From Alloalcanivorax marinus (lineage in GTDB: Bacteria; Pseudomonadota; Gammaproteobacteria; Pseudomonadales; Alcanivoracaceae): a DNA stretch of 64,000 bases. The position numbers were made by a program, and so were the translations under genes. Position 1 is the first letter of the stretch. Each line of letters starts with the position of its first letter. The DNA lies in the NCBI RefSeq assembly GCF_016906305.1, contig NZ_JADDOL010000009.1:62001-126000 (forward strand). Direction: 5' to 3'. The notes beneath the pieces were generated by a model, which had not been told where the DNA came from, made no database searches, and was given only the letters and a program-made list of their open reading frames with translations. Positions 17,982 through 59,029 of this stretch are shown here, piece by piece.

Positions 17982-18116
17982 ATGGCTTCCGCCTGCAAGG
18001 TGAAGGCTTGTGGCCATGTCCCCCACGGTCAATCCGTCCTGTGCGGGTAAACATATTGTATTCCCCGGGACGGTTGAGTAGCTTCAAAGGCTTGTTTCCG
18101 AGCGCCGAGAGACCCC

Positions 18117-22069: not shown

Positions 22070-22510
22070 ATGAGTGAAAGCAAAGCGCGCCCGCTGCGCG
22101 ACGAATTCGGCTATCTGTGCCCGGTGGACAGCCGCTGGGCGGACAACGACATCTACGGCCACATCAACAACGTGGTGTATTACAGCTATTTCGACTCCAC
22201 CATCAACCGTTACCTGATCGATCACGGTGGACTGGACATCCACGATGGCGAAGTGATCGCCTATGTGGTCAGCTCCGGGTGCGACTATTTTGAGGCCGCC
22301 GCCTATCCGGACGCGCTCTGCGTGGGCCTGCGCGTGGACAAGCTGGGCAACAGTTCAGTGCGCTATGGTCTGGCGTTGTTTGGGGAGGAGGGCGCCGCCA
22401 AGGCGCTGGGGTTCGTGGTGCACGTGTTCGTGGACCGCGCCAGTGGCCGGCCGGTGCCGATTCCGGAAACGTTGCGCGCGGCGCTGGCGGCGTTGAGCAA
22501 GGCGGATTAG
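22070..22510 (+). CDS. Acyl-CoA thioesterase, 4HBT hot-dog family
   Basis: A 146-residue hot-dog-fold thioesterase. RWADNDIYGHINNVVYYSYFD (core WADNDIYGHINNVVYY, residues about 23-38) is the catalytic block of the 4-hydroxybenzoyl-CoA/YbgC-type family, with Asp in the active site. FVVHVFVDRASGRPVPIPE near the end is also typical. It would hydrolyse an acyl-CoA; the acyl group is unknown. GAGGA seven bases upstream supports ATG 22070. Its stop overlaps the stop of the convergent AraC-type gene by four bases. Confidence 0.85.
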   Translation: MSESKARPLRDEFGYLCPVDSRWADNDIYGHINNVVYYSYFDSTINRYLIDHGGLDIHDGEVIAYVVSSGCDYFEAAAYPDALCVGLRVDKLGNSSVRYGLALFGEEGAAKALGFVVHVFVDRASGRPVPIPETLRAALAALSKAD

Positions 22511-23451
22511 CGCGACTGCCGCCATTCGCTGGGGCTGACGCCGAAGGCCGCCTTGAAGGCGCGGCTGAAGGTGGCGCTGTCGGTGAAGCCGTAGTCCAGA
22601 GCGATGTCCAGAATGCCGCGGTGGGCGTTGTCCGGCGCCGCCAGGGCCTCGCGGATGGCGTCCAGCCGCACCTGGCGGATAAAGCGGCCCGGGGTGAGCT
22701 GGTGCTCTTCGAACAACCGGTACAGGGCGCGCCGGGACACGTGCAGGGCACCGGCCAGTTCGTCCGGGCTGAGCTCCGGATCGTCGATGTGCGCCAGCAC
22801 ATGGCGGTGGGCCACGTCCAGGCTGATGGCGCCGCCGGCCCGTTCCGGGGCGGAGGCGCCGTGCAGCAGCGCGGACAACATCATCTGCACCGCCTGGAAC
22901 ACCGGGCTGGCGCTGCCGCCGGGGCCGTCCGGCTGATCCATCAGCGCCATCACCGCGGCCAGGGCGGCGCGGGCGGTGGTGCGGTCGTTGAGCGTATGGG
23001 CGCAGACCCGCTGGCTGAGCCGTTCCCAGCCGGGAATCGCCTCGTAGGGCAGCATCAGCACGGCCAGCTGGGCGTGGTCCTGCATGGCCAGCTGGTAGGG
23101 GCGGGCGGTGTCGCAGATGGTGACGTCGCCGGTATTGAGCAGGGTTTCCCGGCCATCCTGTTCCACGGCGGTGCGACCGTTCTGCTGCCACATGACCTTG
23201 AGCAGGCCTTCCTCGGCGCGGCGCGCGCCCAGGCCGGTGCGGCGCACCCGGCAGGAGTCGGAGCGGATCACCGCCACCGCCCGGTGGTCGAAGTTGCACA
23301 GCTGCACGTCGGCGCGGAAGTCCTGCTGCTTGTTGGCGCTCATCTCCAGCCAGGGGAAATTGCAGTTGACGAAGTTCTGCCAGGGGCGAAAGCCTTCGAT
23401 CACCTGATGGCCGGGCGAGGGAACCGGGTTGTGACTGCGTATTGCCTGCAC
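22507..23451 (-). CDS. AraC-family regulator, FeaR-like, of the amine-utilisation cluster
   Basis: A 314-residue transcription regulator. The N-terminal 200 residues form an AraC-binding-like sensing domain (NFPWLEMSANKQQDFRADVQ, then LCNFDHRAVAVIRSD) as in FeaR, which activates phenylacetaldehyde dehydrogenase and amine oxidase genes in enterics. The C-terminus has two HTH motifs, SPDELAGALHVSRRALYRLF and DIALDYGFTDSATFSRAFK, ending GVSPSEWRQ. It starts with GTG (23451), with GGAGAG four bases upstream. It is divergent from an aldehyde dehydrogenase and close to the amine dehydrogenase genes, so it is the obvious candidate regulator; the inducer would be an amine or its aldehyde. The gap upstream holds repeats and two palindromes. 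Confidence 0.85.
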   Translation of the reverse strand: MQAIRSHNPVPSPGHQVIEGFRPWQNFVNCNFPWLEMSANKQQDFRADVQLCNFDHRAVAVIRSDSCRVRRTGLGARRAEEGLLKVMWQQNGRTAVEQDGRETLLNTGDVTICDTARPYQLAMQDHAQLAVLMLPYEAIPGWERLSQRVCAHTLNDRTTARAALAAVMALMDQPDGPGGSASPVFQAVQMMLSALLHGASAPERAGGAISLDVAHRHVLAHIDDPELSPDELAGALHVSRRALYRLFEEHQLTPGRFIRQVRLDAIREALAAPDNAHRGILDIALDYGFTDSATFSRAFKAAFGVSPSEWRQSR

Positions 23452-23459
23452 GGTGCTCT

Positions 23460-23506
23460 CCGTTAGGCTGTGGGCCGTTAGGCGACGGGGCCGTCAGGCG
23501 ATGGGG
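23460..23506. repeat. Tandem 15-16 bp repeats in the regulator leader
   Basis: Three units beginning CCGTTAGGC or CCGTCAGGC and ending in a G run lie at 23460-23474, 23475-23490 and 23491-23506, just upstream of the GTG start of the AraC-type gene. They fall in its mRNA leader or promoter. Confidence 0.75.
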
Positions 23507-23514
23507 TCGTTCGT

Positions 23515-23541
23515 GTGACATGCACGGTGCGTGCCTGTCAC
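23515..23541. promoter_or_regulatory. Inverted repeat, candidate operator
   Basis: Eleven-base arms GTGACATGCAC and GTGCCTGTCAC (one mismatch) are separated by GGTGC. It lies in the divergent gap between the AraC-type regulator and the aldehyde dehydrogenase. A protein-binding site is likely; the protein is unknown. Confidence 0.5.
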
Positions 23542-23561
23542 GAAGCGGCCCGGGCCGGCCC

Positions 23562-23590
23562 GTTATTATTCGACTGAGGTCGAATATAAC
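23562..23590. promoter_or_regulatory. AT-rich palindrome, candidate operator or promoter core
   Basis: GTTATTATTCGAC and GTCGAATATAAC are inverted copies apart from one inserted base, with spacer TGAG. This is the only AT-rich island in the 279-base divergent gap, so it may overlap the -10 regions as well as bind a regulator. Confidence 0.5.
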
Positions 23591-23629
23591 AGATTGAAGG
23601 CACCGGACAACAAAGGCGCCGGCTCGCCC

Positions 23630-23663
23630 GGCACGCAGCGTCAACATCTTTGCACCCGCTGCC
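23630..23663 (+). promoter_or_regulatory. 34-bp motif shared with the quinohaemoprotein promoter
   Basis: Starts GGCAC, contains GTCAACA and CTTTGCAC, ends CGCTGCC. It matches 30245-30278 at 29 of 34 positions without gaps. It ends 67 bases before the aldehyde dehydrogenase GTG. Most simply it is the binding site of the AraC-type regulator encoded at 22507-23451. Confidence 0.7.
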
Positions 23664-23730
23664 ATGCGGGCGCGGCGGGCGGCGGCGGACAATGCCAGGA
23701 TCAGAAAAACCGACATCCTGGAGGCATTCC

Positions 23731-25179
23731 GTGACAGCTCAGCGAGGACACTTTATTGCCGGACGCGACGTTCCGGCTTCCGACGGCGCCACCATGAAGG
23801 TGGTCAGCCCGGCCAACGAGACGCTGCTGGCCGAGGTGGCGCGCGGCACCACCGACGACGTGGACGCGGCGGTGGCCGCCGCCCGCGCCCAGCTCGACGG
23901 CGGCGACTGGAGCGCCCTGTCCGGGGACCAGCGCGGCCAGCTGATCAACCGGCTGGCCGACCTGGTGGAGCGCGACGCCGACCTGCTGGCCGACCTGGAC
24001 GCCTCCTGCATCGGTCGCCCGGGCATGGAGCCGCGCCTGCTGGATCTGCCCAACACCATCGCCACCCTGCGCACCTGCGCCGGCTGGGCCGACAAAATCG
24101 AGGGCCGCACCATCCCCACGCCCGGCTACATGGGCACTCCTACCCTGTCCTACACGGTGCGCGAGCCGGTGGGCGTGGTCGGCGCCATCACCCCCTGGAA
24201 CACGCCGTTGATGATCACCAGCTGGAAGCTCGGTCCGCTGCTGGCGGCGGGCTGCACGGTGGTGATCAAGCCCTCCGAGGAAACGCCCCTGTCCGCCCTG
24301 CATCTGGTGAAACTCTGCCAGGAGGCCGGTTTCCCGGACGGCGTGGTGAACGTGGTCACCGGCGAGGGCGCGGTGGTGGGCGAGGCCCTGTGCGTGCACC
24401 CGGACGTGGACAAGATTTCCTTCACCGGCAGCCCGGAAGTGGGCGCGCGCATCCAGACCACCGCCGGCGCCCGCTTCAAGCGCGTGGCTCTGGAGCTGGG
24501 CGGCAAAAGTCCGCAGATCGTGTTCGAGGACGCCGACCTGGACGCCGCCGTGCAGGGTTGCGCCATGGGCATCTTCTTCAACAGCGGGCAGGTGTGCGCC
24601 GCCGGCAGCCGCATTCTGGTACACAACAGCCGCCTGGCGGACTTCGCCGAGCGCCTGGCGGCGGTGGCCGAGGGCATTCAGGTGGGCGACCCCTCCGCCG
24701 GCGAGGTGCAGATGGGGGCCCTGGCCAGCGCCGATCAGAAGGCCAAGGTGGAGGACTACATCCGTCGCGGCGTCCAGGAAGGCGCCAAACTGCTCAGCGG
24801 CGGTGAGATGCCCACCGACAAAGGCTGCTATGTGCGGCCCACGGTGTTCGTCGGCGGCAACGATCTGAGCATCGCCCGGGACGAGATTTTCGGTCCGGTG
24901 GCCACGGTGATCGGCTTCGACGACGAGGCGGACGCCATCCGCATCGCCAACGATACCCGCTATGGCCTGGCCGCCACCCTGTGGACCGGCGACGTGGGCC
25001 GCGCCCACCGGGTGGCCCGGGCGGTGCGCGCCGGCGCCATCGGCATCAACGGCTGGGCGCCCATCGACGCCCACCTGCCCTGGGGCGGCATGAAGTCCAG
25101 CGGCATCGGCCGCGAGGGCGGCCTCAGCGGCGTGCTGGCCTACACCGAGGAGAAAGTGATCACCGTCGTTACCGGTTGA
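23731..25179 (+). CDS. Aldehyde dehydrogenase (NAD(P)-dependent), amine-pathway type
   Basis: A 482-residue ALDH-superfamily enzyme that would oxidise the aldehyde released from an amine (for example phenylacetaldehyde or 4-hydroxyphenylacetaldehyde) to the acid. Visible hallmarks: the cofactor motif VGAITPWNTPLMITSWKLGP, catalytic Glu255 in LELGGKSPQI, catalytic Cys289 in NSGQVCAAGSRI, and EIFGPVATVIGF. The GTG at 23731 is chosen because GGAGG lies six bases upstream and earlier in-frame codons give a non-family arginine-rich extension. It is divergent from the FeaR-like regulator and preceded by the 34-bp motif. A strong terminator follows. Which aldehyde is inferred from context. Confidence 0.92.
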   Translation: MTAQRGHFIAGRDVPASDGATMKVVSPANETLLAEVARGTTDDVDAAVAAARAQLDGGDWSALSGDQRGQLINRLADLVERDADLLADLDASCIGRPGMEPRLLDLPNTIATLRTCAGWADKIEGRTIPTPGYMGTPTLSYTVREPVGVVGAITPWNTPLMITSWKLGPLLAAGCTVVIKPSEETPLSALHLVKLCQEAGFPDGVVNVVTGEGAVVGEALCVHPDVDKISFTGSPEVGARIQTTAGARFKRVALELGGKSPQIVFEDADLDAAVQGCAMGIFFNSGQVCAAGSRILVHNSRLADFAERLAAVAEGIQVGDPSAGEVQMGALASADQKAKVEDYIRRGVQEGAKLLSGGEMPTDKGCYVRPTVFVGGNDLSIARDEIFGPVATVIGFDDEADAIRIANDTRYGLAATLWTGDVGRAHRVARAVRAGAIGINGWAPIDAHLPWGGMKSSGIGREGGLSGVLAYTEEKVITVVTG

Positions 25180-25200
25180 TCCAAGGTCCCTCCACTAAAA

Positions 25201-25226
25201 AGCCCGGCTCAGGCCGGGTTTTTTTT
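25201..25226 (+). terminator. Terminator of the aldehyde dehydrogenase gene
   Basis: Stem CCCGGC / GCCGGG with a four-base loop, preceded by an A run and followed by T8, 20 bases after the stop. Confidence 0.9.
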
Positions 25227-25240
25227 GCTTTCAACTCCCA

Positions 25241-25266
25241 TAAAAAACCCCGGCCGGAGCCGGGGT
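25241..25266 (-). terminator. Terminator of the outer-membrane protein gene
   Basis: Stem ACCCCGGC / GCCGGGGT with a four-base loop; on the minus strand it is followed by T6. It ends the convergent minus-strand unit. Confidence 0.88.
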
Positions 25267-25294
25267 GGCACAACGCTACAAGGTGCGGGCAGCG

Positions 25295-26623
25295 TCAAAA
25301 ACCGAAGGCGACGATCAGCTGGGTGTAGAGGTTGTCGTCGTCGCCGCCGAGCTGGGTGCCGCCATCGGCGGCGGAGGCGTCCGGCTGGTACAGGCCGATC
25401 AGCGGGATGATCGCCAGGTTGGCGGTGACGCCCCATTCCGCGTACAGGTCGAACTCGCGGGCATCCAGATTGACGCCAGCGTCCTGGTCCAGGGTGGCGA
25501 AGTCGTAGGCGAGCAGGCCGATGGACAGGTTTTCCCGGGGCGTGGCGCCGAGAGCGATGTTGTGCACCTTGGTATTGGTGTTGAACGGGCCGGCATAGTT
25601 GGCCGCCACTTCACCCTGGAACCAGGTGCCCAGGCTGCGGCCGTTGCCGTAGAACAGCGGGTCGAAGCCCTCGGAGAAACGGCTGTAGCGATAATGGACG
25701 CTGGGCTGCCAGGGCGCGTCGGCGAAGGTCCAGCCGGCTTCCAGGTACCAGGCGTCCTCGTCGCCCTGGTCCTGATCCTGCCAGGCGTATTCGCCGGACA
25801 GGAACAGATTGTCCACGCCGGCGTCGCCCTGGTAGCGCAGGCTCCAGGTTTCCTCGCCGTCCCGTTGTGGATACAGAAACGCGAAGTCTTCCTCCACATC
25901 GTCCACCTTGATGTAGGTGAGGCCGAAGGTGCCGGCGTCGCCCACGTGTTCCAGGTTGCCGACTTTCATGGCGGCTTCCGCCTGGGCCGGGTTGTCCGAC
26001 TCGATCCACATGGCGTCGCCGCGCCAGCCGCTGTCGCCGCCCAGGCTCAGCACGGCGGTTTTGTCGAACGCCTGGCGGGCGGCCAGATAGTAGGCGCCGC
26101 CCCGGTTCAGGTCGCCGCCGGCGATGCCGTTGCCAAAGTTGAGGGCGTCGCCGGAGATCAGGAAGCCGTCGCCGATCTTGATGGCCTGGCGGCCGGCGGA
26201 GAACGCCAGGCCGTTTTCGCCCAGCGCCGGGAACAGGTCGCCGGAGCGCCAGCCCAGATAAGCGTCTTCCACATCGGTCTCGCGCTCGCTGCCGTCGCTG
26301 AAGCCGGCGGCGTCGCCGTCGTCCCAGGTGCCGCTGCTGAGCGCGTTGACGGCGCCGAACAACTGGCCGCCGCCGAGCTGCTGCTCCAGGGCCAGGCCGT
26401 ATTTCAGGTAGCCTTCCTGCCAGCTGGAGGAGCCTTCGCTTTTGCTGCCGGCGGTGGCGTAGTTTTCCTGGCTGTGGAAGACGCCGCCGACGCCCTCGAG
26501 GGTCAGGTCCAGCCGGGTCTGGTCGTTGGCCACCAGTTCCAGCGCCTGGCTGTGCGCCCCCAGGGCGGTCAGTGAACAGGCAAGCAGCGCCCGTTTCACG
26601 GCTTTTGAGTAAGCGGTGATCAT
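25295..26623 (-). CDS. Outer-membrane beta-barrel protein (alginate-export/porin-like)
   Basis: A 442-residue protein with a signal peptide (VKRALLACSLTALGAHSQA, cleavage near residue 27) and alternating strands throughout, ending in the C-terminal Phe (LIVAFGF) required for outer-membrane barrel insertion. The sequence (WQEGYLKYGLALEQQ, EDAYLGWRSGDLFPALGEN, FSAGRQAIKIGDGFLISGDA) resembles the alginate-export/OprD-like barrels of gammaproteobacteria. It lies between the aldehyde dehydrogenase and the cytochrome c/amine dehydrogenase genes, transcribed with the latter, so it may carry amines across the outer membrane. That role is inference. GGAG precedes the ATG. Confidence 0.82.
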   Translation of the reverse strand: MITAYSKAVKRALLACSLTALGAHSQALELVANDQTRLDLTLEGVGGVFHSQENYATAGSKSEGSSSWQEGYLKYGLALEQQLGGGQLFGAVNALSSGTWDDGDAAGFSDGSERETDVEDAYLGWRSGDLFPALGENGLAFSAGRQAIKIGDGFLISGDALNFGNGIAGGDLNRGGAYYLAARQAFDKTAVLSLGGDSGWRGDAMWIESDNPAQAEAAMKVGNLEHVGDAGTFGLTYIKVDDVEEDFAFLYPQRDGEETWSLRYQGDAGVDNLFLSGEYAWQDQDQGDEDAWYLEAGWTFADAPWQPSVHYRYSRFSEGFDPLFYGNGRSLGTWFQGEVAANYAGPFNTNTKVHNIALGATPRENLSIGLLAYDFATLDQDAGVNLDAREFDLYAEWGVTANLAIIPLIGLYQPDASAADGGTQLGGDDDNLYTQLIVAFGF

Positions 26624-26679
26624 GGTTGTGTCTCCATTCAGGTGAAGCCCGCGCTGGCGGCGCGGGCGGCGGGATCAGC

Positions 26680-27234
26680 TCATCGGCTGTCTCCGTTGTT
26701 GTGGTTGTCGTGGGGCATGCCGTCGTGGATGGCGATGCCCTGGTCGCGCATGCGCTGGATCAGCCGGGCGCGGGTGTCGGGCAGGTTGTGCAGCCGGGTG
26801 GCGCGGATGCGCGCCACTTCGGCGCCGGTGTAGGGCGCCGCGTCTTGCGGGGTGCTGGCGCCGGCCATGCCGTCACGGGCCAGGATCCAGTTGAGCAGCT
26901 CGGCGAGCTGGTCGTTGTCGAGCGCCGCCTGGGCCACGCCGGGCACCCGCACCAGAAATTCCCGGCCGCCCTCCACGCGCAGGAAGTTGCCGACGAACCC
27001 GGTCATGCGCGGCACGTCGTTGCGCGGCGCCCCCTGGCCCTCGGGCAGGTGACAGCCGGCGCACTGCAACTGGTAGTTCACCGCCGGGCTGTAACCGGCC
27101 CGGGACAACGGAATCTGCGGTTGCTCGTTGCCCGGCGCCGGCGTTTGCGACGGGTCCGGCATGGCCCGGGCGTGGACGCCCGGGGCCGCGACGGTGGTCG
27201 CCAGCAGGACGGTGAACAGCAGGCCAGGTCGCAT
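26680..27234 (-). CDS. Periplasmic monohaem cytochrome c of the amine dehydrogenase cluster
   Basis: A 184-residue exported cytochrome c. A signal peptide (MRPGLLFTVLLATTVAAPGVHA) is followed by a haem-binding CAGCH at residues 58-62; Met77 (PRMTGF) is a possible sixth ligand. A long C-terminal extension rich in Arg/His/Asp/Asn follows the haem domain. ATG 27234 gives a normal signal; the gene starts five bases after the light-chain stop, so it is co-transcribed. A likely job is taking electrons from the TTQ amine dehydrogenase, replacing the blue copper protein (azurin or amicyanin) used elsewhere, since no copper protein is encoded nearby. Confidence 0.82.
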   Translation of the reverse strand: MRPGLLFTVLLATTVAAPGVHARAMPDPSQTPAPGNEQPQIPLSRAGYSPAVNYQLQCAGCHLPEGQGAPRNDVPRMTGFVGNFLRVEGGREFLVRVPGVAQAALDNDQLAELLNWILARDGMAGASTPQDAAPYTGAEVARIRATRLHNLPDTRARLIQRMRDQGIAIHDGMPHDNHNNGDSR

Positions 27235-27239
27235 GCGTC

Positions 27240-27767
27240 TCAACCGGCCTTGGCCACGCCGCGGATCACCGCCACGGTGCAGTTGTAGACGTTGGCGTCG
27301 GCGCCCAGGCACCAGTTGATGTCGTTGTTGTTGAACGGCCGGTACATGGGTTCCTCGCTGTCGTTGCGGGTACAGGCGCACTGGGCGCAGCTGTGCTTAC
27401 CGCAGCAATCGTTGTAGGAAATGATGTAGTCGATGCCGTCCGCCGGATTACGGCAGGTGCCCACCCAGGTCACCTCCGAGCCCTGGGTGCCCGGCGGGCA
27501 GCTGTTCACGGTGCCGCCACAGCAACTGCAAAGAAAGCCGTCCACGGAGCAGTAGCGCCAGTAGTCACAGCTGGTGGGGTCACCGGGGTCGCCGGCTTTC
27601 GGCGATTCGGCGGCCAGTGCCTTGGCGGTGCGGTCCACCGGCAGCAGCACCGGCATGGCGGCGCCGGCCACCAGGAAGGAGCCGAGGCGGCCCAGGAAGC
27701 GCCGCCGGGAGGTGGTGCTGGCCACGTGGCGCGTGGAGCGCTCGAAGAATTGATCGAGGAATTTCAT
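27240..27767 (-). CDS. aauA: TTQ amine dehydrogenase light chain (aromatic-amine type)
   Basis: A 175-residue catalytic small subunit of a periplasmic quinoprotein amine dehydrogenase. The cofactor tryptophan tryptophylquinone would form from Trp101 (TWVGTC) and Trp152 (INWCLG), 51 residues apart as in known enzymes. Asp120 (SYNDCCG) and Thr164 fall at the spacings of the catalytic Asp and Thr of aromatic amine dehydrogenase. DGFLCSCCGGT and ISYNDCCGK favour the aromatic-amine over the methylamine enzyme. Fourteen cysteines lie in the mature domain, matching a disulfide-rich fold. The N-terminus carries a twin-arginine signal (TSRRRFLGRLGSFLVAGAA). The gene sits between the maturation gene and the cytochrome c gene, two and five bases away. 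Confidence 0.93.
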   Translation of the reverse strand: MKFLDQFFERSTRHVASTTSRRRFLGRLGSFLVAGAAMPVLLPVDRTAKALAAESPKAGDPGDPTSCDYWRYCSVDGFLCSCCGGTVNSCPPGTQGSEVTWVGTCRNPADGIDYIISYNDCCGKHSCAQCACTRNDSEEPMYRPFNNNDINWCLGADANVYNCTVAVIRGVAKAG

Positions 27768-27769
27768 GG

Positions 27770-28405
27770 TCAGGCGCTCCCTTTTTCGGTGGGCAGGTTG
27801 TCACCGGGATGGTGAATGTGCGGGGCCTGGCCACGGAGATAATCCTGCAGGGTGGCGGCGCCCAGGAATTCGGTTTCGAACAGGCTGTCCAGGTGCTCCC
27901 GGGAGTTCACCAGGCCCTTGGCCTTGAGCGTGCCTTCGCGGTCGATCAGCACCGCGTAGGGCAGTTTGCCGATCTGGTAGGTCATGCCCACCTGCGGGTC
28001 CACCACGTAGTGGGAACGCTCCAGTTTGAAGTCGGCGATGATCTTGTCCTGCTCGGCCATATCGCCGTCGCTGACGTAGATCACCTCCAGGTCGTCCCGG
28101 GAACGCTCGATGGCGCGCACCGCCGGCAGCAGGGATTTACAGATCGGGCAGGTGGGCGACAGGAAGAACAGCATCTGCGCCCGTTCGCCGGAGTAGCCCA
28201 CGTTCACCGGGCGGCCCTGGCGGTCCTCGGCGGTCAGTTTCGGCGCCGGCTGATTCACCGCCACGCCCTTGTCCACCATCAGTGCCCCGGCCGGGGCGAT
28301 ACGGGCGTGCAGCACGCCGATCTGGCGGATCAGGCCCACCACCACCAGGGCCATGGCGATCAGCAGACACCAGAGAAGTACATTGGAAACGATCAAGGCT
28401 TGCAT
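27770..28405 (-). CDS. aauD: MauD/AauD-like thiol-disulfide protein for light-chain maturation
   Basis: A 211-residue membrane-anchored thioredoxin-like protein. An N-terminal helix (LLWCLLIAMALVVVGLI, residues about 10-26) is followed by a periplasmic domain with the redox motif Cys86-Pro-Ile-Cys89 (FFLSPTCPICKSLLPAV). In methylamine dehydrogenase systems MauD and MauE are needed to form or isomerise the many disulfides of the light chain. Position between aauE and aauA, two bases before the light-chain ATG, fits that role. AAGGGGA precedes the start. Confidence 0.9.
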   Translation of the reverse strand: MQALIVSNVLLWCLLIAMALVVVGLIRQIGVLHARIAPAGALMVDKGVAVNQPAPKLTAEDRQGRPVNVGYSGERAQMLFFLSPTCPICKSLLPAVRAIERSRDDLEVIYVSDGDMAEQDKIIADFKLERSHYVVDPQVGMTYQIGKLPYAVLIDREGTLKAKGLVNSREHLDSLFETEFLGAATLQDYLRGQAPHIHHPGDNLPTEKGSA

Positions 28406-28430
28406 GGAAGTCCCCTTATTGTGTGTTGGG

Positions 28431-28970
28431 TTATCGTCCGGACAGACCGAGCAGACGCGGCTGGTTGGCCAGCCACACCTCGATCGCCGCGTACAGCAAA
28501 ACGGTCACCGCCGTGGCGGCCAGTACCACGAAGCCGTCGAACACGCCCAGCGCGCGGGGCGCGGCGGGGGCGGCGGCCATCAGGGCCAGCCCGGCGAGCA
28601 GCAGGTTGCGCAGCAGCAGCCGTGGATGCAGCGGCTGCGGGGCGCCGGGGCCGGCGCAGCCGCAGTCCAGATCGCGGCGGCCCCGGCTCAGGTTGATGCC
28701 GATGGCGGCGGCGTACAGCACCACCAGGGCCAGCGCCGCCAGGGCCGCCGGGCCGCGCGTGGCGGGCCACAGCAGCGCCAGCGCCAGGGTGCCTTCCAGC
28801 AGCGGCAGGGCGCGCGCCGCCGGGCCATGCAGGGCGCCGGGCAGCAGCCGGTACTCGGCCACCTGGCGGCGGAACCAGGCCGGCGCGCGCAGCTTGTGGC
28901 TGGCGGCGCTGGCCAGGATCACCGCCAGGGAGACGGCGCCGGCGGCGGTCAGAATCGGGTCCAGGCTCAT
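28431..28970 (-). CDS. aauE: MauE/AauE-like membrane protein
   Basis: A 179-residue integral membrane protein with four hydrophobic segments and the conserved DLDCGCAG near residues 80-87, the cysteine pair typical of MauE (DoxX/DsbD-like family). It is thought to supply or remove electrons for MauD during light-chain disulfide formation. ATG 28970 is chosen because AGGAGG lies just upstream and gives the family N-terminus SLDPILTAAGAVSLAVIL; a longer frame to 29129 would overlap the heavy-chain gene and is rejected. It starts eight bases after the heavy-chain stop. Confidence 0.88.
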   Translation of the reverse strand: MSLDPILTAAGAVSLAVILASAASHKLRAPAWFRRQVAEYRLLPGALHGPAARALPLLEGTLALALLWPATRGPAALAALALVVLYAAAIGINLSRGRRDLDCGCAGPGAPQPLHPRLLLRNLLLAGLALMAAAPAAPRALGVFDGFVVLAATAVTVLLYAAIEVWLANQPRLLGLSGR

Positions 28971-28978
28971 AGCGCCTC

Positions 28979-30124
28979 CTAGTGGGTGATGACCAGGGTC
29001 GGGGTCTTGCTGACGCCGTCCATGGTGTCCACGTATTCGCCCTTGGTCAGGTCGAAGATGTCCAGGCCGCCTTCCACGTTGGTGCCCAGCAGCAGCGGCT
29101 TGTCGTCGGAGGTGGCGTTGAGGCTCCACACCAGGCTGGGGGTCTCCAGGGTGCCCACCTTCTTGTGGGTTTTGAGATCAAACGCCCAGATGGTCTGGCT
29201 CGGGTCTTCCCATTTGTGCGGGGCGTGATCCGGATGCATCAGCACGTACAGACGGTTCAGCGCCGGCGCCACCGCCATCAGCTGCCAGCCGCCCGGGGCC
29301 CAGCCGTCCTGGCGTTCCTGCTCGGTGGTCAGCCACCACTCGGGGAGCTTTTTCGGCTTCTTGCCGGACAGGTCGACGCCGCGCACCCGGCCTTCGGTGG
29401 TCACGAAGTAGTAGGTGTCGCCGTCCCCGGCGGCCCGCTCCACCAGTTTTTCCTTCTCCGGGTCGAAGAAGGGGGTGGCGTTGCGGTCCACTTCCTGGCC
29501 GCTGTCGTCCAGGGTGATCATCTGCAGCTTGCCGTCGCCGCACAGGGACGCGAAGCGACGCTTGCCCACCGGGTAGTTGAGAATGCAGCCGGGAATGGCC
29601 AGCTCGTTGACCACCTCCTGCTTTTGCGTGTCCACCACGGTCACCGAGGTGGCCGGCGTGAAGTTGTAGATGTACACGAAGCGATCATCGGCGCTGGTGC
29701 TGAGGCCGTAGCGCTCGGTCAGCGTGGAGGCGCGCTTGGTGGGGATTTTCACTTCCCACTTCGGCGACAGGCTGGAAGTGTCCCAGGCGGTGAGCACATC
29801 GGTGCGTTTACCGCGCACATAGCGCTCGAAGAAGATGTCCGCGGTGTACACGGTCTTCTGGTCGTGGGACAGCACCGCCGGCGCCGCGCCGCCGGTGCTG
29901 AGCATGCCGAGCACCTTGCGCTGGTCCGGATCGACCACCACCACCCGGGTGGCCACCATGTTGTTGAATTCGAAATCGACGATGTAGCTGCGGTGCGGGT
30001 CCGGCGGGAACGGCAGGGTGGTGTTCTGCCCGAGCTTTTCCACCGGCAGTTGCGCTTGGGCGGTGGCGCTCACGGCCGCCGCCGCCAACAGCAAGCCCGT
30101 GCACAGGGGTCGTGAAAGTCGCAT
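28979..30124 (-). CDS. aauB: TTQ amine dehydrogenase heavy chain
   Basis: A 381-residue exported beta-propeller, the large subunit of the alpha2-beta2 amine dehydrogenase; it shapes the substrate channel to the TTQ of the light chain. A signal peptide ([15 protein letters not shown]) precedes the start of blade 1, [20 protein letters not shown]. Recognisable propeller strands include [20 protein letters not shown] (family-typical HMH/DxHK-like stretch) and [17 protein letters not shown]. It is the first gene of a tight minus-strand operon aauB-aauE-aauD-aauA-cytochrome c. The order matches the published aauBEDA/mauBEDA arrangement as I remember it. It is divergent from a quinohaemoprotein gene. 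Confidence 0.93.
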
Positions 30125-30190
30125 AGCTGCTCCGGTTGTAGGTGTGGTTATGGGCTGAGTGTGTGCCTCGCCGCCTCGGGTTGCATGGTT

Positions 30191-30200
30191 CTGAGTGCCA
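30191..30200 (-). promoter_or_regulatory. Half-site TGGCACTCAG upstream of the amine dehydrogenase operon
   Basis: On the minus strand this ten-base site lies 67 bases before the aauB ATG. It is nearly the inverse of TGGCACTGAG at 30244-30253 (one difference, plus orientation), the left end of the 34-bp motif. Two oppositely oriented half-sites would let one activator serve both divergent promoters. Confidence 0.45.
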
Positions 30201-30244
30201 ACCGCTTGTTATTTCTTGCCAGGGATGGGCCGCCGGGACCGGCT

Positions 30245-30278
30245 GGCACTGAGGGTCAACAACTTTGCACTCGCTGCC
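30245..30278 (+). promoter_or_regulatory. 34-bp motif upstream of the quinohaemoprotein gene
   Basis: Second copy of the motif at 23630-23663: 29/34 identical, sharing GGCAC, GTCAACA, CTTTGCAC and CGCTGCC at identical spacing. It ends 86 bases before ATG 30365. No other feature explains the conservation, because neither site is coding. Confidence 0.7.
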
Positions 30279-30364
30279 GGGCCCCGGGCGGACGGGATCA
30301 TCGAGAATGTCCCGAGCCCTCCCTCAAGGGGCCGGACCGCACAACAACAATAGCGAGGACCGAC

Positions 30365-32209
30365 ATGACCACAACCCTTCACGCCGGCGCCCGGGCGCTG
30401 GCCGTCGCCTGCCTGCTGCACGCCTGCACCTTCTCCGAACAGGCTTCGCCGCCGCCCACCGGGGCGGCCCTGGATGCCACCCGGCTCAACGCCGCCGCCG
30501 GCGAACCCGGCAATTGGATGACCCACGGCGGCACCTACGCGGAGCAGCGTTTCAGCCGCCTCGACCGGATCAACCGGGACAATGTGGGCCGGCTGGGTCT
30601 GGCCTGGACCTACAAGCTGGACATCGACCGGGCGGTGGAGGCCACGCCCATCGTGGTGGACGGCGTGATGTACACCACCGGCCCGTTCAGCATTGTCTAC
30701 GCCCTGGACGCGCGCAACGGCGAACTGCTCTGGAAGTACGATCCCGGGGTGGCCAAAACCCGCGCCCGGGACGGTTGCTGCGGCCCGGTGAACCGCGGCG
30801 TGGCGGTGTGGAAAGGCAAGGTGTTCGTGGGCGCCTATGACGGCCGGCTGATCGCCCTGGACGCGGCCAGCGGCAAGCCGGTGTGGAGCGTGGACACGCT
30901 GATCGACGCCAACCGCAGCTACACCATCACCGGCGCCCCCCGGGTAGTGAAGGGCAAGGTGCTGATCGGCAACGGCGGCGCCGAGTTCGGCGTGCGCGGC
31001 TACATCACCGCCTACGACGCGGAAAGCGGCGAGCAGGCCTGGCGCTTTTTCACGGTGCCCGGCGATCCGGCCCTGCCGCCGGAGAACGAGGCCATGGCCC
31101 GGGCCCGCGACACCTGGTTCGGCGACCAGTACTGGAAGCTGGGCGGCGGCGGCACGGTGTGGGATTCCATGGCCTATGACCCGGAGCTGGACCTGCTCTA
31201 TATCGGCACCGGCAACGGCAGCCTGTGGAATCGCCAGGCCCGTTCGGCGGGCAAGGGCGACAACCTGTATCTGAGCTCCATCGTGGCGCTGCGCCCGGAG
31301 ACCGGGGAGTACGTGTGGCACTATCAGACCACGCCCGGCGATCAATGGGACTTCACCGCCACCCAGACCATCACCCTGGCGGACCTGGAGATCGGCGGCG
31401 AAACCCGCCAGGTGCTGATGCAGGCGCCCAAGAACGGGTTCTTCTATGTGCTCGACCGGCGCACCGGCGAACTGCTTTCCGCCGAACCCTACGCCCCGGT
31501 GAACTGGGCCGACGGGGTGGACCCGCGCACCGGCCGGCCGCGCATCAATCAGGAGGTGGCGGACTGGAGCCAGGGGCCCCGAGTGCTGGTGCCCGGCCCG
31601 CTGGGCGCGCACAACTGGATGCCCATGGCGTTCAGTCCGGACACCGGCCTGGCCTACATTCCGGTGCAGGAAGCGCCGGCCCTGCTGGTGCCCGACAACG
31701 AGGCCACCTTCAAGGGCCGGGGGCGCTTCCAGGTGGGCAGCCAGCCGGTGGAACTGCCCGAGGACCCGGCCACCCTGGCGAAGACCGTGGCCGCCTACAA
31801 GGGCCGGTTGGTGGCCTGGGACCCGGTGGCGCAAAAGGAAGTGTGGCGGCAGCCGTTCCCCAGCATCTGGAACGGCGGCGTTCTGGCCACCGCCGGCGGC
31901 CTGGTGTTCCAGGGCAACGTGAACGGCAAGGTGGCGGCCTACGGCGCGGACGACGGCGAACCGCTGTGGGAGGCGCCGGCCAACACCGGCGTGGTGGCCG
32001 GCCCGGTGACCTACGAAGTGGACGGCGAGCAGTACGTGACCTTCATGGCGGGCTGGGGCGGAGCCTTCCCGCTGGCGTTCGGCGGGCTGGCCTCCAACGC
32101 CAAGGTGGTCCCGGAGGCGCGCATTCTTACCTACAAGCTGGACGGCACCGGGACCCTGCCGGCGCCCCGGCGCGTGGCCCGGGCCCTGCCGGACACCTAC
32201 CGGCGCTGA
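30365..32209 (+). CDS. PQQ-dependent quinohaemoprotein dehydrogenase, catalytic domain (frameshifted gene)
   Basis: A 614-residue eight-bladed propeller dehydrogenase of the type II quinohaemoprotein alcohol dehydrogenase group. PQQ-pocket features are visible: adjacent Cys138-Cys139 (RDGCCGPV), [21 protein letters not shown]-like blade motifs, [13 protein letters not shown], and [12 protein letters not shown]. The N-terminus looks like a lipoprotein signal (LLHACTFS). It would oxidise a periplasmic alcohol or related compound. The reading frame ends ALPDTYRR-stop exactly where the family continues into a cytochrome c domain, which is present in the -1 frame (32197-32490). Divergent from the aau operon and preceded by the shared 34-bp motif. 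Confidence 0.87.
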
Positions 32210-32490
32210 CCGCCGACGCGGACACCCTGGACCGGGGCCGCGACCTGTACAACGACAACTGCGGCATCTGCCACGGCTTCAGCGCGCTGGGGGGCGGTGT
32301 GATCCCGGATCTGCGCTATCTGGATGAGCAGGGTCACCAGGCGTTTCCCGCCATCGTCGCCGGCCTCTACGCGGACAAGGGCATGCCGTCCTTCGCCGGT
32401 GACCTGAGCCTGGAGCAGGTCGAGGCGATCCATCAATACCTGATCAAACGCAGCGGCGATCTGCGGCGCGAGCTGCAAAGCGCCCCCTGA
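32197..32490 (+). pseudogene. C-terminal cytochrome c domain of the quinohaemoprotein, out of frame
   Basis: About 97 codons in the -1 frame relative to the upstream gene encode [20 protein letters not shown], haem motif CGICH, GGGVIPDLRYLDEQGH and the axial-ligand region KGMPSFAG, ending RRELQSAP. This is the usual C-terminal domain of type II quinohaemoprotein dehydrogenases. It has no ATG/GTG start, ribosome site or signal peptide, so it cannot be a separate cytochrome gene. One missing base, or a -1 ribosomal shift, would fuse it to the 614-residue part into a protein of about 710 residues, the normal size. A GC-rich stretch with CCCC and CCCGGGCCC lies just before the break. Confidence 0.8.
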
Positions 32491-32503: not shown

Positions 32504-33760
32504 TCAGCGCGGCTGCCAGTGGGCGGCCGGGCGGGCCAGGCGGCGGGCCGCGTAGGCCGCCGGGTCGGCGGCGCCGTCGCCGTCGGAGAAGTACAGTTCG
32601 GCGACGAAATAGAACTCCTGGCCGAACGGAATGCGGTCCAGGGCGAAGCCCACATTGGGCCGCTGCCCGGGGAAGCGTTCCGGTTCGTCGTCCAGGGACG
32701 GGTCGTCCTGGTAGATAAAGCGGGCGCCGGTATCGAAGCCCTCGGCGAAATACAGCCGCGCCAGCAGATCGAAACCGTCGCCGGTGCCGAACCACAGCCA
32801 GTTGTCGGTGGGCACCGGGGTATCGACCATGGCCTGTTCGGTGTCGTCCAGACGGCCGTCCACACGGGCCTCCCTGTCGCCGGTCCAGCTGGTGCGCAGG
32901 CGCGCGCCGGTCAGGTTGTTGCCGTCCACGGTGGCCCGGGCGCCGGGTTCGCGCAGCACGGTGGCGGCGAAACCGGGCAGGGTCAGGCGGCTGTGCACCG
33001 CCACCGCCCGGTCGCGGACCAGAAAGTAGTTGTGCAGCTTGAGCACCGGCAGGCCGGCCACCCGCACCCGGGTGGTCACATAAGCGCGGGTGGCCAGGGG
33101 GCCGTCCACCACCTGGCGGATTTCCGGGTCCAGGTTTTCGTTGGTCAGGGTGAGGCGGGCGCCGGCGCTGAACACCCCGGCGCTGAGGCGCAGCTTGAGG
33201 CTGTCCAGCAGGTTCAGCGGCTGGCCGTCCGGGCCGGTGCGGCCGGCGTAGAAGAAATCCCCCCAACGGAACAGGTTGTCGTCCTCGAACGCCAGCTGGA
33301 ACGCCGGGGTGCGCAGGGCCAGCGGCTCCCGTCGCAGGCGCTCGGGGGCGTGGCGGGCCGGCGGCCGCCGGGCCAGGGCGTAGAGGCTGCGGGCGTGTTC
33401 GCCGGTGCCCACGGTAAGCACTCCGAGCACCTCTTCGGGCAGTGGCGCGGGGGCGGCCCGGGCGGTGTCCGGCAGGTCCACCAGCAGGTGATCCTCGGCG
33501 GCGATGCGGTCCGCCGGCTGCGAGCGTTCGGCGTCGCCGTCCTCCTCGAACCAGGGCGCGCGGCCCTGGCTCCAGGGCAGCCACTGGTGGGGCAGGCTGA
33601 CGAAGTCGCCGTCCCGGTACACCGCCAGATCCACGGTGGCCGGGTCGCGGCCGGCGAGCCCGGCGATGGCCGGGCCCTGCAGTTCGACGATGGCCGCCGT
33701 GGCCGGGGCGCCAAGCAGCGCGAGGGTGAGCAGCGTGAAAATACGAAGGAGGGTGAGCAT
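32504..33760 (-). CDS. Secreted protein of unknown function
   Basis: A 418-residue protein with a clear signal peptide (MLTLLRIFTLLTLALLGAPATA) and a long beta-rich mature part. I recognise no family with confidence. Visible elements: FQLAFEDDNLFRWGDFFYAG, TRVRVAGLPVLKLHNYFLVR, DNWLWFGTGDGFDLLARLYF and FGQEFYFVAELYFSDGDG; there is a bias to aromatic and Asp/Gly residues, as in carbohydrate-active or outer-surface sandwiches. ATG 33760 has AGGA five bases upstream; another Met two codons earlier is possible. It is convergent with the quinohaemoprotein gene, 13 bases apart, and is preceded by a 200-base gap that holds only a hairpin. Confidence 0.7.
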   Translation of the reverse strand: MLTLLRIFTLLTLALLGAPATAAIVELQGPAIAGLAGRDPATVDLAVYRDGDFVSLPHQWLPWSQGRAPWFEEDGDAERSQPADRIAAEDHLLVDLPDTARAAPAPLPEEVLGVLTVGTGEHARSLYALARRPPARHAPERLRREPLALRTPAFQLAFEDDNLFRWGDFFYAGRTGPDGQPLNLLDSLKLRLSAGVFSAGARLTLTNENLDPEIRQVVDGPLATRAYVTTRVRVAGLPVLKLHNYFLVRDRAVAVHSRLTLPGFAATVLREPGARATVDGNNLTGARLRTSWTGDREARVDGRLDDTEQAMVDTPVPTDNWLWFGTGDGFDLLARLYFAEGFDTGARFIYQDDPSLDDEPERFPGQRPNVGFALDRIPFGQEFYFVAELYFSDGDGAADPAAYAARRLARPAAHWQPR

Positions 33761-33937
33761 GGGCATCCTGGCACCGGTGGTTCCGTTACCGGACAGGCTG
33801 AGGCAAAGCGCCGGCCCGGTCGAGGCCGGGCGGCGGGCGGTCAATGGCTGCGGAGCCGTTGGCGAGGTATCGGTCTCCAGCGGGGCCGCTCAGGTGCGAT
33901 CTCCAGCGTTGGGCCGGAGGGTCGCGGTGGGGGAGGT

Positions 33938-33964: not shown

Positions 33965-35913
<1,949 letters not shown>

Positions 35914-35917
<4 letters not shown>

Positions 35918-37863
35918 TCTTCCTCCGTTTCAAAGTCCACCAACAAGGTGCCTTCAGAAACGCTGTCTCCGGCTTTCACGAGGAAGGCCCGCACGGTGCC
36001 GGGGGCACTGGCGCGCAGGGTATGTTCCATTTTCATGGCTTCCAGCGTGATCACGGCCGCGCCGGCGTCCACGGGGTCGCCTTCGGCCACATGGCAGGTC
36101 ACGATGGTCCCGCTCATGGGCGCGCAGAAATCCCCCGGGCCGCCGGCTCGCTCGCTCTCCCGAGCCGGGTGCGTTTCGATCTGATAGTTCTGTCCGTGGA
36201 CGAACACCGTCAGGCGCCGGTCATCAAAGGAAAAGAGGGCAAGACCGGAAAGCCTGTGCTCACCCCAGTGCAGGTCGAAGCGATCATCGTGCCGATGCAG
36301 CGTCCAGGGGGCGGAACGATCCGCCACGCTGGCCCGATCGTCGTCGAGCACCACGGTGAGGGCGTGTTCATCCACGCGCAGCGGCACCAGGGTACGCCGC
36401 CGGCCCAGCGGACGCCAGGCGTTCAGCGCGGTCCAGGGGTCGGTACCGTCGGCGGGCGCGGTGGCCACCAGGGCGGCGCCGGCCACCGCCAGCAGGGCCG
36501 GGTCCGTGGCCGGCGCCTCCAGCAGGTGCGGATGACGCTCCAGCAGGCGGGTGTCCAGCTCGGCGTCGGCGAAGGCCGGATCGCAAAGCACCCGGCGCAG
36601 AAAGGCGGCGTTGTGGTGGGGGCCGGCCAGCGCCAGCTGGTCCAGAGCGCGCACCAGCCGGCGCCGGGCCTGATCGCGGTCGTCGCCGTGGGCGATCAGC
36701 TTGGCCAGCATCGGATCGTAATAATCGGAAACACTATCGCCTTGCTCCACGCCGGCGTCCACGCGCACGCCGTCGGGCCAGCGCAGCTGCGTCACCGGGC
36801 CGGAGGAGGGCAGAAACTGCTGGTAGGGATTTTCCGCGTACAGGCGCACTTCCATGGCGGTGCCCTGGATGCGCAGGTCGTCTTGGGTCTTGGGCAGGGG
36901 CCGGCCCCCGGCCACCGCCAGTTGCCAGGCCACCAGATCCTCGCCGGTGATCAGCTCGGTGACCGGATGCTCCACCTGCAGGCGGGTGTTCATCTCCATG
37001 AAGAAGAACTCCCCCTCCGGCGAGAACAGAAACTCCACGGTGCCAGCGCCCCGGTAGTCGATGGCGCGGGCGGCGCGCACCGCCGCCTGGCCCAGATCAT
37101 GGCGTTGTTGCTCGCTGAGACCGGGGGCCGGGGCCTCCTCGATGATTTTCTGGTGACGGCGCTGCACCGAGCAGTCGCGCTCGAACAGGTGCACCGCGTT
37201 GCCGTGGCCGTCGGCGAACACCTGCACCTCCACGTGGCGGGCGGTGGGCAGGTAGCGCTCCAGCAGTACCCGGTCGTCGTCGAAGGCGTTGCGCGCTTCC
37301 CGGCGCGCGGCGGCCAGGGCCTCGTCGAACCCGTCAGCGCTCTGCACCGCGCGCATGCCCTTGCCACCACCGCCGGCCACCGCCTTGATCAGCAGCGGGA
37401 AGCCGACCCGGTCGGCCTCCGCTTTGAGGGTGGCGTCGCCGGCGCCTTCCCGGTCGAAGCCGGGCAGCACCGGCACGCCGCTTTCCGCCATGCGCTGGCG
37501 GGCGGCGGCCTTGTCGCCCATCAGGCGGATCGAGTCCGGCGAGGGGCCGACGAAGATCAGGCCGGCCTCGGCGCAGGCTTCGGCGAAGGCGGCGTTCTCC
37601 GAGAGAAAGCCATAGCCGGGGTGGATCGCGTCGGCGCCGCTTTGCCGGGCGGCGGCCAGCACCGCCTCGATATTCAGGTAGCTGTCCCGGGCGCTGGCCG
37701 GGCCCAGGCGCACCGCCTGGTCCGCCTCGCGCACATGGGGGGCATCGGCGTCGATGTCGGAGTACACCGCCACCGTGGTCAGGCCCAGGGCGCGGCCGGT
37801 GCGGATAATGCGCCGGGCGATTTCGCCCCGGTTGGCGATCAGAAGGGTGTCGATGGCGGGCAT
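35914..37863 (-). CDS. liuD: Methylcrotonyl-CoA carboxylase, biotin-carrying alpha subunit
   Basis: A 649-residue biotin carboxylase with a C-terminal biotinyl domain. It carboxylates biotin using ATP and bicarbonate for 3-methylcrotonyl-CoA, in leucine breakdown. The order is: biotin-carboxylase N-domain (IDTLLIANRGEIARRIIRTG), ATP-grasp with KAVAGGGGKGMRAV, HPVTELITGEDLVAWQL-type block, then the biotin site EAMKME with Lys611. The stop overlaps the next gene; liuC ends two bases before its ATG. Assignment to methylcrotonyl- rather than acetyl- or geranyl-CoA rests on the operon. Confidence 0.93.
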
Positions 37864-55479: not shown

Positions 55480-56444
55480 GTGGCGCCATCGTGGTGGCGG
55501 CCCTGTACCGCTTTACCCGCCTGGAAGGCCATGAGCAGCTGCGCGAGCCGCTGCTGGCGCTGATGCAACAGCACGACGTCAAAGGCACGCTGCTGCTCGC
55601 CCACGAGGGCATCAACGGCACCATCTCCGGAGACCGGGCCGGCATCGACGCGGTGGTCGGCTGGCTGCGCGCGGACCCGCGCCTGGCGGACCTGGAGTAC
55701 AAGGAATCCTTCACCGACGCCCACCCGTTCCTGCGCAGCAAGGTCAAGCTCAAGCGCGAGATCGTCACCATGGGCGTCGAGGACGTGGACCCCAACCGCA
55801 GCCGGGGCACCTATCTGGAAGGCGAGGACTGGAACCGGGTGATCGCCGACCCGGAGACCCTGGTGATCGACACGCGCAACGACTACGAGTACGAGGTCGG
55901 CACCTTCGAAGGCGCGCTCAACCCCAACACCAAAAGCTTCCGCGAATTTCCGGACTATGTGCGTGAGCACCTGGACCCGGCCCGCCACAAGCGGGTGGCC
56001 ATGTTCTGCACCGGCGGCATCCGCTGCGAGAAGTCCACGGCCTATCTCAAGGAGCAGGGCTTCGAGGAGGTCTACCACCTCAAGGGCGGCATCCTCAAAT
56101 ACCTGGAAACCGTCCCCAAGGAGCAGTCCCTGTGGCGCGGTGAGTGCTTCGTGTTCGACGAACGGGTCACCGTGGACCACGACCTGAAACCCGGCGTGTA
56201 CGACCAGTGCCACGCTTGCCGCCGGCCGATCTCTGAACAGGATAAGGCGTCGCCGCTGTACCGGCGGGGCGTGTCCTGCCCGCACTGCCATGACGAATCC
56301 TCGGCGGAGCAGAAAGCGCGCTTCGCCGAACGACAAAAGCAGATCGACCTGGCCCGGCGCCGGGGCGCGCCCCATCTGGGACACGACCCGCGCGGCCGGG
56401 ACCATCCTTCCCCCGACCAGAAACGCCCGAGCCCCGAGGAGTAA
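55476..56444 (+). CDS. trhO: tRNA uridine(34) hydroxylase TrhO (rhodanese-like)
   Basis: A 322-residue YceA/TrhO-type enzyme that makes 5-hydroxyuridine at tRNA position 34. It has an N-terminal ACP-like domain ([20 protein letters not shown]), a rhodanese domain with Cys in [13 protein letters not shown] near residue 183, and a cysteine-rich tail ([19 protein letters not shown]). Overlap with the bolA-like gene suggests co-expression. modA starts seven bases after its stop. Confidence 0.92.
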
Positions 56445-56451
56445 CGTTCGA

Positions 56452-57177
56452 ATGCGCGTGCTGTTGTTGCTGGCCAGCCTGATCCTGTCCGTCGCCGCCT
56501 CCGCCGCCGAGCCGGTGCGGGTGGCGGTGGCCGCCAATTTCGCCAAGCCCCTGGAAACCCTGGTGGCCCTGTACGGCAAGGATCACCCCGACGTCACCAT
56601 CGAGACCACGGTGGCGTCCACCGGCAAGCTGGCGGCGCAGATCCGGCAGGGCGCGCCGTTCGACCTTTTCCTGGCCGCTGACGACCGCCGGCCGATGGAA
56701 CTGGATGAAGAAGGCCTGGGCGTGACCGGCACCCGCCGGGTCTATGCTCTGGGCCGGCTGGCGCTGTGGAGCCCGGAGCAGGGCTTGGACCTGGGCCCGG
56801 CGCTGCTGGAACGCGGCGACCTCAGCCTCATCGCCCTGGCCAACCCGCGCCTGGCGCCCTATGGCGCCGCCGGCCAGGCGGTGCTGGATACCCTGGCCCT
56901 GCCGGCGTCGGTCAAGGTGGTGCAGGGCGAGAACGTGGGCCAGGCCTACCACTTCGTCAGCAGCGGCGCCGCCCGGGCCGGCTTCGTGGCGTTCAGCCAG
57001 GTGCGCGGCGCCGGCGGCAGCCTGTGGCTGCCGGACGGCGACCTTTACCCGACCATTGAGCAGCAGAGCTTGCTGTTGAAGGATCGGGCCGAGGCGCGCG
57101 CCTTCTATGAGTTCCTGGGCAGCGACGCCGCCCGCGCGCGCATCGAGGAAGCCGGCTACGGCGTCGCGCCCCGGTGA
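56452..57177 (+). CDS. modA: Molybdate ABC transporter, periplasmic binding protein
   Basis: A 241-residue substrate-binding protein (signal VLLLLASLILSVAASAAEPV). The family blocks VAVAANFAKPLETLVALY, ASTGKLAAQIRQGAPFDLFLAAD and NPRLAPYGAAGQAVLDTL are those of ModA, and the oxyanion-binding Ser/Thr are in the expected stretches (SVAA.., STGK). GAGGAG 10 bases upstream. Overlaps modB by four bases. Confidence 0.93.
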   Translation: MRVLLLLASLILSVAASAAEPVRVAVAANFAKPLETLVALYGKDHPDVTIETTVASTGKLAAQIRQGAPFDLFLAADDRRPMELDEEGLGVTGTRRVYALGRLALWSPEQGLDLGPALLERGDLSLIALANPRLAPYGAAGQAVLDTLALPASVKVVQGENVGQAYHFVSSGAARAGFVAFSQVRGAGGSLWLPDGDLYPTIEQQSLLLKDRAEARAFYEFLGSDAARARIEEAGYGVAPR

Positions 57178-57867: not shown

Positions 57868-58914
57868 ATGAGTCTGCAGGTGGACCTGAAGCTGCGGCGC
57901 GGTGACTTCCGGCTGACGGTGAACGGCCGGTTGCCGGAACGGGGCGTGACCATTCTGTTCGGCGTTTCCGGCGCCGGCAAAAGCAGCCTGCTGAAAGCCA
58001 TCGCGGGGTTGCAGCCCTGCCAGGGGCTGATCCGCTTCGGCGATCAGGTGTGGCAGGACGAGGGCGGCAGTCTGCCGGCGCACCGCCGTCCGGTGGGGCT
58101 GATGCTGCAAAAACCGACCCTGTTTCCTCACCTGGACGTGGCCGGCAACCTGCGCTTCGCCGCCCGCCGCTCCGGCGCCGACGCCGGCCGCTGGCGGGAG
58201 GTGGTGGCCCTGACCGAATTGCAGCCGCTGCTGACGCGGGGCGTGGCCGGCCTTTCCGGCGGCGAGGCCCAGCGCGTGGCCCTGGCCCGGGCCCTGCTCA
58301 CCGAACCGGATCTGCTGCTGCTGGACGAGCCGCTGTCGGCGCTGGACGCCGAGCGCCGCCAGGCGCTGATGGCCGTGATCGCCCGGGTCGCCGAACGCCT
58401 GCCGGTGCTGTACGTCACCCATCAGCTGGACGAGGTGATGACCCTGGGCGACCAGCTCTGGTGGCTGGACCAGGGCGGCCTGCGCGAGCAGGGCGAACTC
58501 ACCGAACGGCTGGCCGGGCTGCACGGTCCCCTGGCCGCCGGTGGCCAGGCGGCGGTGGTGCTGCACACCCGTCACCGCCACTACGATCCCCAACACCATC
58601 TGCTGGAACTGGCCCTGGGCGAGCGGGTGCTGCGTCTGCCCGCCGACGGCCCCCGGGGCGACGCGCCACGCCTCAAGGTGGCGGCCCGGGACGTGAGCCT
58701 GACCCTCACCGCCGCCCGCGATTCCAGCGTGCTCAACATTCTGCCCGCCCGGGTGGACGGGCTGCGCGACCTGGGCCACGGGCAATGCCTGGTGCGCCTG
58801 GACTGCGAAGGGCAGTGGCTGCTGGCGCGGCTGTCCACCCTGTCCCGGGACAGCCTGGATCTGCGCCCGGGCAGCACCGTCTACGCCCAGATCAAAGCCG
58901 CCGCCCTGGTCTAG
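57868..58914 (+). CDS. modC: Molybdate ABC transporter, ATP-binding protein
   Basis: A 348-residue ATPase: Walker A GVSGAGKSS (residues 32-40), signature LSGGEAQRVALARAL, Walker B LLLLDEPLSAL, then a C-terminal TOBE/Mop domain (LGHGQCLVRLDCEGQ) which in ModC binds molybdate. The set modABC is complete. A GC-rich gap of 115 bases follows before the GMC gene. Confidence 0.94.
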   Translation: MSLQVDLKLRRGDFRLTVNGRLPERGVTILFGVSGAGKSSLLKAIAGLQPCQGLIRFGDQVWQDEGGSLPAHRRPVGLMLQKPTLFPHLDVAGNLRFAARRSGADAGRWREVVALTELQPLLTRGVAGLSGGEAQRVALARALLTEPDLLLLDEPLSALDAERRQALMAVIARVAERLPVLYVTHQLDEVMTLGDQLWWLDQGGLREQGELTERLAGLHGPLAAGGQAAVVLHTRHRHYDPQHHLLELALGERVLRLPADGPRGDAPRLKVAARDVSLTLTAARDSSVLNILPARVDGLRDLGHGQCLVRLDCEGQWLLARLSTLSRDSLDLRPGSTVYAQIKAAALV

Positions 58915-59029
58915 CTGCGCGGCGGCTGCGCGGCGCGGCGGCGATCTGCTAACCTGCCGGCATCCTGAACGGAATAATAACGGGCGGCAAACCGCCTTTT
59001 GGGATCACCATGGACAGGGGGAAACAAGG

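Follow-up and report, generated by a model that had tools for sequence, protein, structure and literature searches.

The locus examined here raises the question of why an alcohol dehydrogenase gene is spread over two reading frames, and whether it is broken in the organism or only in the draft sequence. In the window (the whole stretch of DNA analysed, 64,000 nucleotides), an open reading frame at 30365..32209 on the plus strand runs for 614 codons from an ATG at 30365 to a premature TGA at 32207-32209. Its 614-aa product corresponds to the PQQ beta-propeller part of a putative type II quinohaemoprotein alcohol dehydrogenase. Directly after it, stranded in the -1 frame of the same strand, lies a cytochrome c domain with the motifs CGICH and GMPSF (about 32203..32490), which is contained in an open reading frame at 31225-32490 and closed by a TGA ending at 32490. 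A sequence-only reading of this DNA had put the end of the 614-residue propeller in frame 0 and the cytochrome c domain one base back, and both placements were borne out. It had also described the haem piece as lacking a start, and indeed no ATG, GTG or TTG in frame was found from 32146 to the CxxCH motif, the earliest being a GTG at 32299. Re-initiation at the haem domain was rejected on this ground.

The identity of the two pieces was assessed by searches against Pfam and NCBIfam profiles and by alignment to solved structures. The propeller piece scored 641 bits against TIGR03075, for which the cut-off is 480, and the haem piece matched cytochrome c (PF13442, E 3.6e-10). The best structural relatives of the propeller were quinohaemoproteins, with alignments running end to end to 1YIQ (E 2e-236) and 1KV9 (E 2.5e-209), and its adjacent cysteines and other conserved segments aligned with both. 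The Cys-Cys pair is presumably the disulphide ring of these enzymes, and we take the conserved segments to be those of the active site. By this measure of sequence, the earlier claim that a full catalytic domain is left holds. The C-terminal cytochrome c domain, which in a type II enzyme is part of the same polypeptide, is encoded here in the other frame. At 30365-30450 the N-terminus looks by eye like a lipoprotein signal, with LLHAC in the window and LLSAC in the A. profundimaris genome (G011). Type II quinohaemoprotein enzymes are soluble and periplasmic, unlike what the lipoprotein-like N-terminus in the window would suggest.

The arrangement in homologues showed that the two frames are a departure from the normal state of the gene. 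Among the best 80 of 590 encoding relatives, taken as named homologous loci, all 80 carry both domains in a single frame with no stop between them and with the CxxCH motif present. None of these 80 loci has a frame change at the joint between propeller and haem domain, and none has lost the haem domain. Because the loci were picked by the propeller alone, the frame of the haem domain was no criterion for their selection. Among these best 80 of 590, the closest named loci are those of Alloalcanivorax marinus (L034) and A. profundimaris (L035). At the DNA level a match to the gene was found in 37 of 114 genomes, and the frame was inspected in five of them (G002, G003, G011, G012 and G105). The gene is a single open frame of 710 residues in each of G011 and G012, and both domains also share one frame in the more distant G105. 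The window gene is therefore interrupted relative to all intact orthologues (80/80 loci, G011 and G012), and the earlier view that it is broken stands beyond chance.

These comparisons bear directly on programmed -1 frameshifting, which had been proposed as one of three causes and by which some full-length enzyme would still be produced. The relation between the frames is indeed -1, and upstream the haem frame stays open as far as 31180, its nearest in-frame stop being at 31177. However, no slippery heptamer of the form X XXY YYZ occurs in the reading frame anywhere in the gene (30365-32209), and all 80 homologues, together with G011 and G012, read through unshifted. The nearest genome (G003) is moreover one base longer at the site. 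Since there is no slippery heptamer, and at the site no stretch of at least four identical bases, programmed frameshifting and phase variation are both unlikely, and we regard the former as so improbable that it was dropped.

The position of the break was defined by alignment to G003, whose identity to the window across the locus is about 95-96%. At about 32190..32197 on the plus strand the window lacks one base that G003 has and the frame is lost, whereas in G003 the propeller tail and the haem domain share a frame. A break inherited jointly with G003 was rejected, given the extra base that G003 has there. The second proposed cause was an indel from sequencing or assembly in the C/G runs. An indel of this kind is possible, but the argument from C/G runs fails because the site lies in no run of at least four identical bases, the nearest being CCCC at 32165 and GGGG at 32234; a homopolymer slip was rejected for the same reason. 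Over 38,083 bases aligned to G003, gaps were listed and the open reading frames around 21 chosen sites were inspected. Of the single-base gaps, that at 32197 alone was judged to fall within the body of a clear gene. Most other frame-changing gaps relative to G003 are intergenic or at gene ends, as judged from the open reading frames; a cluster near 18001-18116, for instance, sits just before an ATG at 18117. Some clusters (for example 56406-56493, 58913-58965 and 60635-60960) fall in stretches where the choice of open reading frame is ambiguous, outside the clear-gene-body judgement. That the gap is unique in a clear gene body and lies outside any base run favours a real mutation, as far as the alignment can indicate.

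In close relatives the same gene is broken in other ways. G003 lacks 703 bases corresponding to window 31385..32087 (plus strand), a deletion that is out of frame there, and the matches flanking it overlap by 7 bases. This internal deletion probably arose between short repeats, for which a 7-base overlap is as expected. The G003 gene also lacks its 5' end: the match begins only at window 30447, downstream of the start codon, and from there the sequence is joined directly to a match ending at window 22853. In G002 the stretch 22628..32293 is missing from the locus, the left match ending at 22627 and the right one starting at 32283 with overlapping ends, so that nothing but a C-terminal portion of the haem domain is retained. 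The methylamine-dehydrogenase (mau) cluster described below may never have stood here in G002 and G003, so the missing stretches did not necessarily arise by one deletion each. In three genomes of the clade, the host (G000) among them, the gene is thus broken in three different ways. As G002 and G003 broke the same gene, a real break in the window is unsurprising. A true mutation separating the haem domain is accordingly the best supported of the three proposed causes, since relatives broke the gene independently and no other single-base gap was judged to be within a clear gene.

Selection on the two pieces was estimated as Ka/Ks (Nei-Gojobori) between the window and G003. For the propeller, the ratio was 0.073 over the shared N-terminal part (311 codons) and 0.090 over every shared codon (348); the haem domain gave 0.089 over 95 codons. 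The propeller tail and linker had a higher ratio, 0.39, a value resting on 31 codons with few changes. Three conserved neighbours gave 0.075 (a GMC oxidoreductase gene), 0.077 (the gene at 33965-35917) and 0.101 (the gene at 35914-37863). Because propeller and haem domain are at the level of these neighbours, both domains have been constrained for nearly all the time since the split from G003; the breaks are then recent, or the one in the window is possibly not real. Up to the recent past, the gene was subject to ordinary purifying selection. A further neighbour, at about 32504-33844, is conserved and has no Pfam match; its Ka/Ks against G003, measured for the gene at 32504-33766, is 0.30, clearly above the three others.

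A low Ka/Ks is equally expected of an intact gene carrying a sequencing error, in which case the organism would have a whole gene and the draft would be one base short. The host assembly (4.05 Mb) is indeed a draft of 56 contigs, with the window on contig C56, and each piece is well formed by itself, with ratios in both like those of a fully constrained gene. Against such an error speak the position of the gap outside any run of four or more bases, the lack of a second single-base gap judged to lie within a clear gene body over the 38,083 aligned bases, and the finding that two relatives have this very gene broken. We therefore consider an error unlikely, though it is the main rival to a true mutation.

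The same data were weighed for a truncation maintained by selection, in which the propeller alone would act as a haem-free quinoprotein alcohol dehydrogenase that, as in the type I (ExaA-like) enzymes, passes electrons to a separate cytochrome c acceptor. The stop lies within the linker and keeps the full propeller, with the Cys-Cys pair and the conserved segments aligned to 1YIQ and 1KV9, and the propeller is strongly constrained. However, the haem piece is constrained to the same degree, so it was in use until recently; none of the 80 homologues is without a haem domain; and the relatives, instead of retaining the propeller, have proceeded to lose the gene. A selected truncation is thus very improbable. 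We give equally little credence to a natural split into an active 614-residue enzyme and a separate cytochrome, which would amount to evolution from type II towards a type I-like state in a PQQ-scavenging bacterium. As the propeller appears complete by alignment to solved structures, some activity is possible; that the 614-residue propeller is of use in this truncated form is no more than a guess.

Taken together, the comparisons make it probable that a gene encoding a type II quinohaemoprotein (PQQ plus haem c) alcohol dehydrogenase has recently been inactivated here, through ordinary gene decay. A single base would have been lost in the linker joining the PQQ propeller to the C-terminal cytochrome c domain. 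Translation is predicted to end right after the propeller, as the position of the stop indicates, and the haem domain, having no start of its own, would not be made. From what is known of the family, an enzyme without its built-in haem would lose its normal exit for electrons and would probably be useless or poor. The loss of one base would then be part of a wider decay of the gene within one Alloalcanivorax clade, which is seen in three genomes, G000 among them.

The surroundings of the gene also differ from those of its intact orthologues. The window has an aldehyde dehydrogenase gene at 23650..25179 (plus strand), which adjoins an AraC-type regulator at 22507..23451 (minus strand); in G011 and G012 the intact alcohol dehydrogenase gene comes straight after this aldehyde dehydrogenase gene. 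In the window, the two dehydrogenase genes are separated by a mau-type cluster on the minus strand (25295..30124, in the block 25242-30221). It comprises the heavy chain, MauE, MauD, the light chain and a gene of 442 residues without a Pfam match. In G011 and G012 the mau cluster is at another locus, beside sequence that matches the window to the right of 32515. The blocks are interleaved in the window relative to these two genomes and, judged by their order, the locus is rearranged. The rearrangement may have helped the loss of the gene; as its cause it is without support.

The supply of the PQQ cofactor was considered across the 13 genomes of the genus. The synthesis genes pqqB, pqqC and pqqE scored above the family cut-off in 4 of them (G005-G008); in the profile search they were below the cut-off or absent in G000, G002, G003, G011 and G012. 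All 13 have a PqqU-like TonB-dependent transporter, which shares 31-36% identity with PqqU of E. coli. The copy of G000, identified by its match to E. coli PqqU, is at C4:112131-114065 (L145), and in G002, G011 and G012 the transporter and a TIGR03075 gene are no more than about 10 kb apart. In every one of the 13 genomes the transporter has F at position 99 and R at 304 and 365, residues that serve as a PqqU signature in PMC12124388. The absence of synthesis genes and the retention of the transporter suggest that the clade of G000 probably depends on imported PQQ.

At E 1e-30, G000 has no TIGR03075 match other than the broken gene. That this gene was the sole PQQ enzyme of the genome is nevertheless wrong, since G000 has two intact TIGR03074 dehydrogenases, as well as PF07995 matches. 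With a PqqU-like importer and two other PQQ dehydrogenases, G000 has not given up the use of PQQ. Decay through abandonment of the cofactor is likewise unsupported: the synthesis genes are likewise below the cut-off or absent in G002, G011 and G012, yet these genomes keep intact TIGR03075 alcohol dehydrogenases.

Among the titles listed in a literature search, none concerns this gene. Among characterised enzymes, the closest comparison is with 1YIQ and 1KV9, which we take to be ADH-IIG and ADH-IIB of Pseudomonas putida HK5. The window propeller aligns with them end to end, including the Cys-Cys pair, and the piece left in the other frame is likewise a cytochrome c domain; the difference is that the window domains lie in two frames and would form a single polypeptide only via a shift. 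The orthologues of A. profundimaris (L035, G011) and A. marinus (L034, G012) share about 85% DNA identity with the window gene and the same upstream aldehyde dehydrogenase gene, but are each one intact 710-residue gene with no mau cluster in between. Within this marine clade the enzyme would then have been lost several times in different ways, the broken gene being one instance. With PQQ synthesis missing, a PqqU-like importer kept and the enzyme broken in three genomes, the clade may offer a small natural case of dependence on imported PQQ. Type I quinoprotein ethanol dehydrogenase has a separate cytochrome partner, and 1FLG is presumably a propeller of this type without a haem domain, like the 614-residue product of the window. 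The window propeller scores only 297 bits against 1FLG versus 790 for the type II enzyme, and annotators should not read the 614-residue product as a new haem-free type of dehydrogenase.
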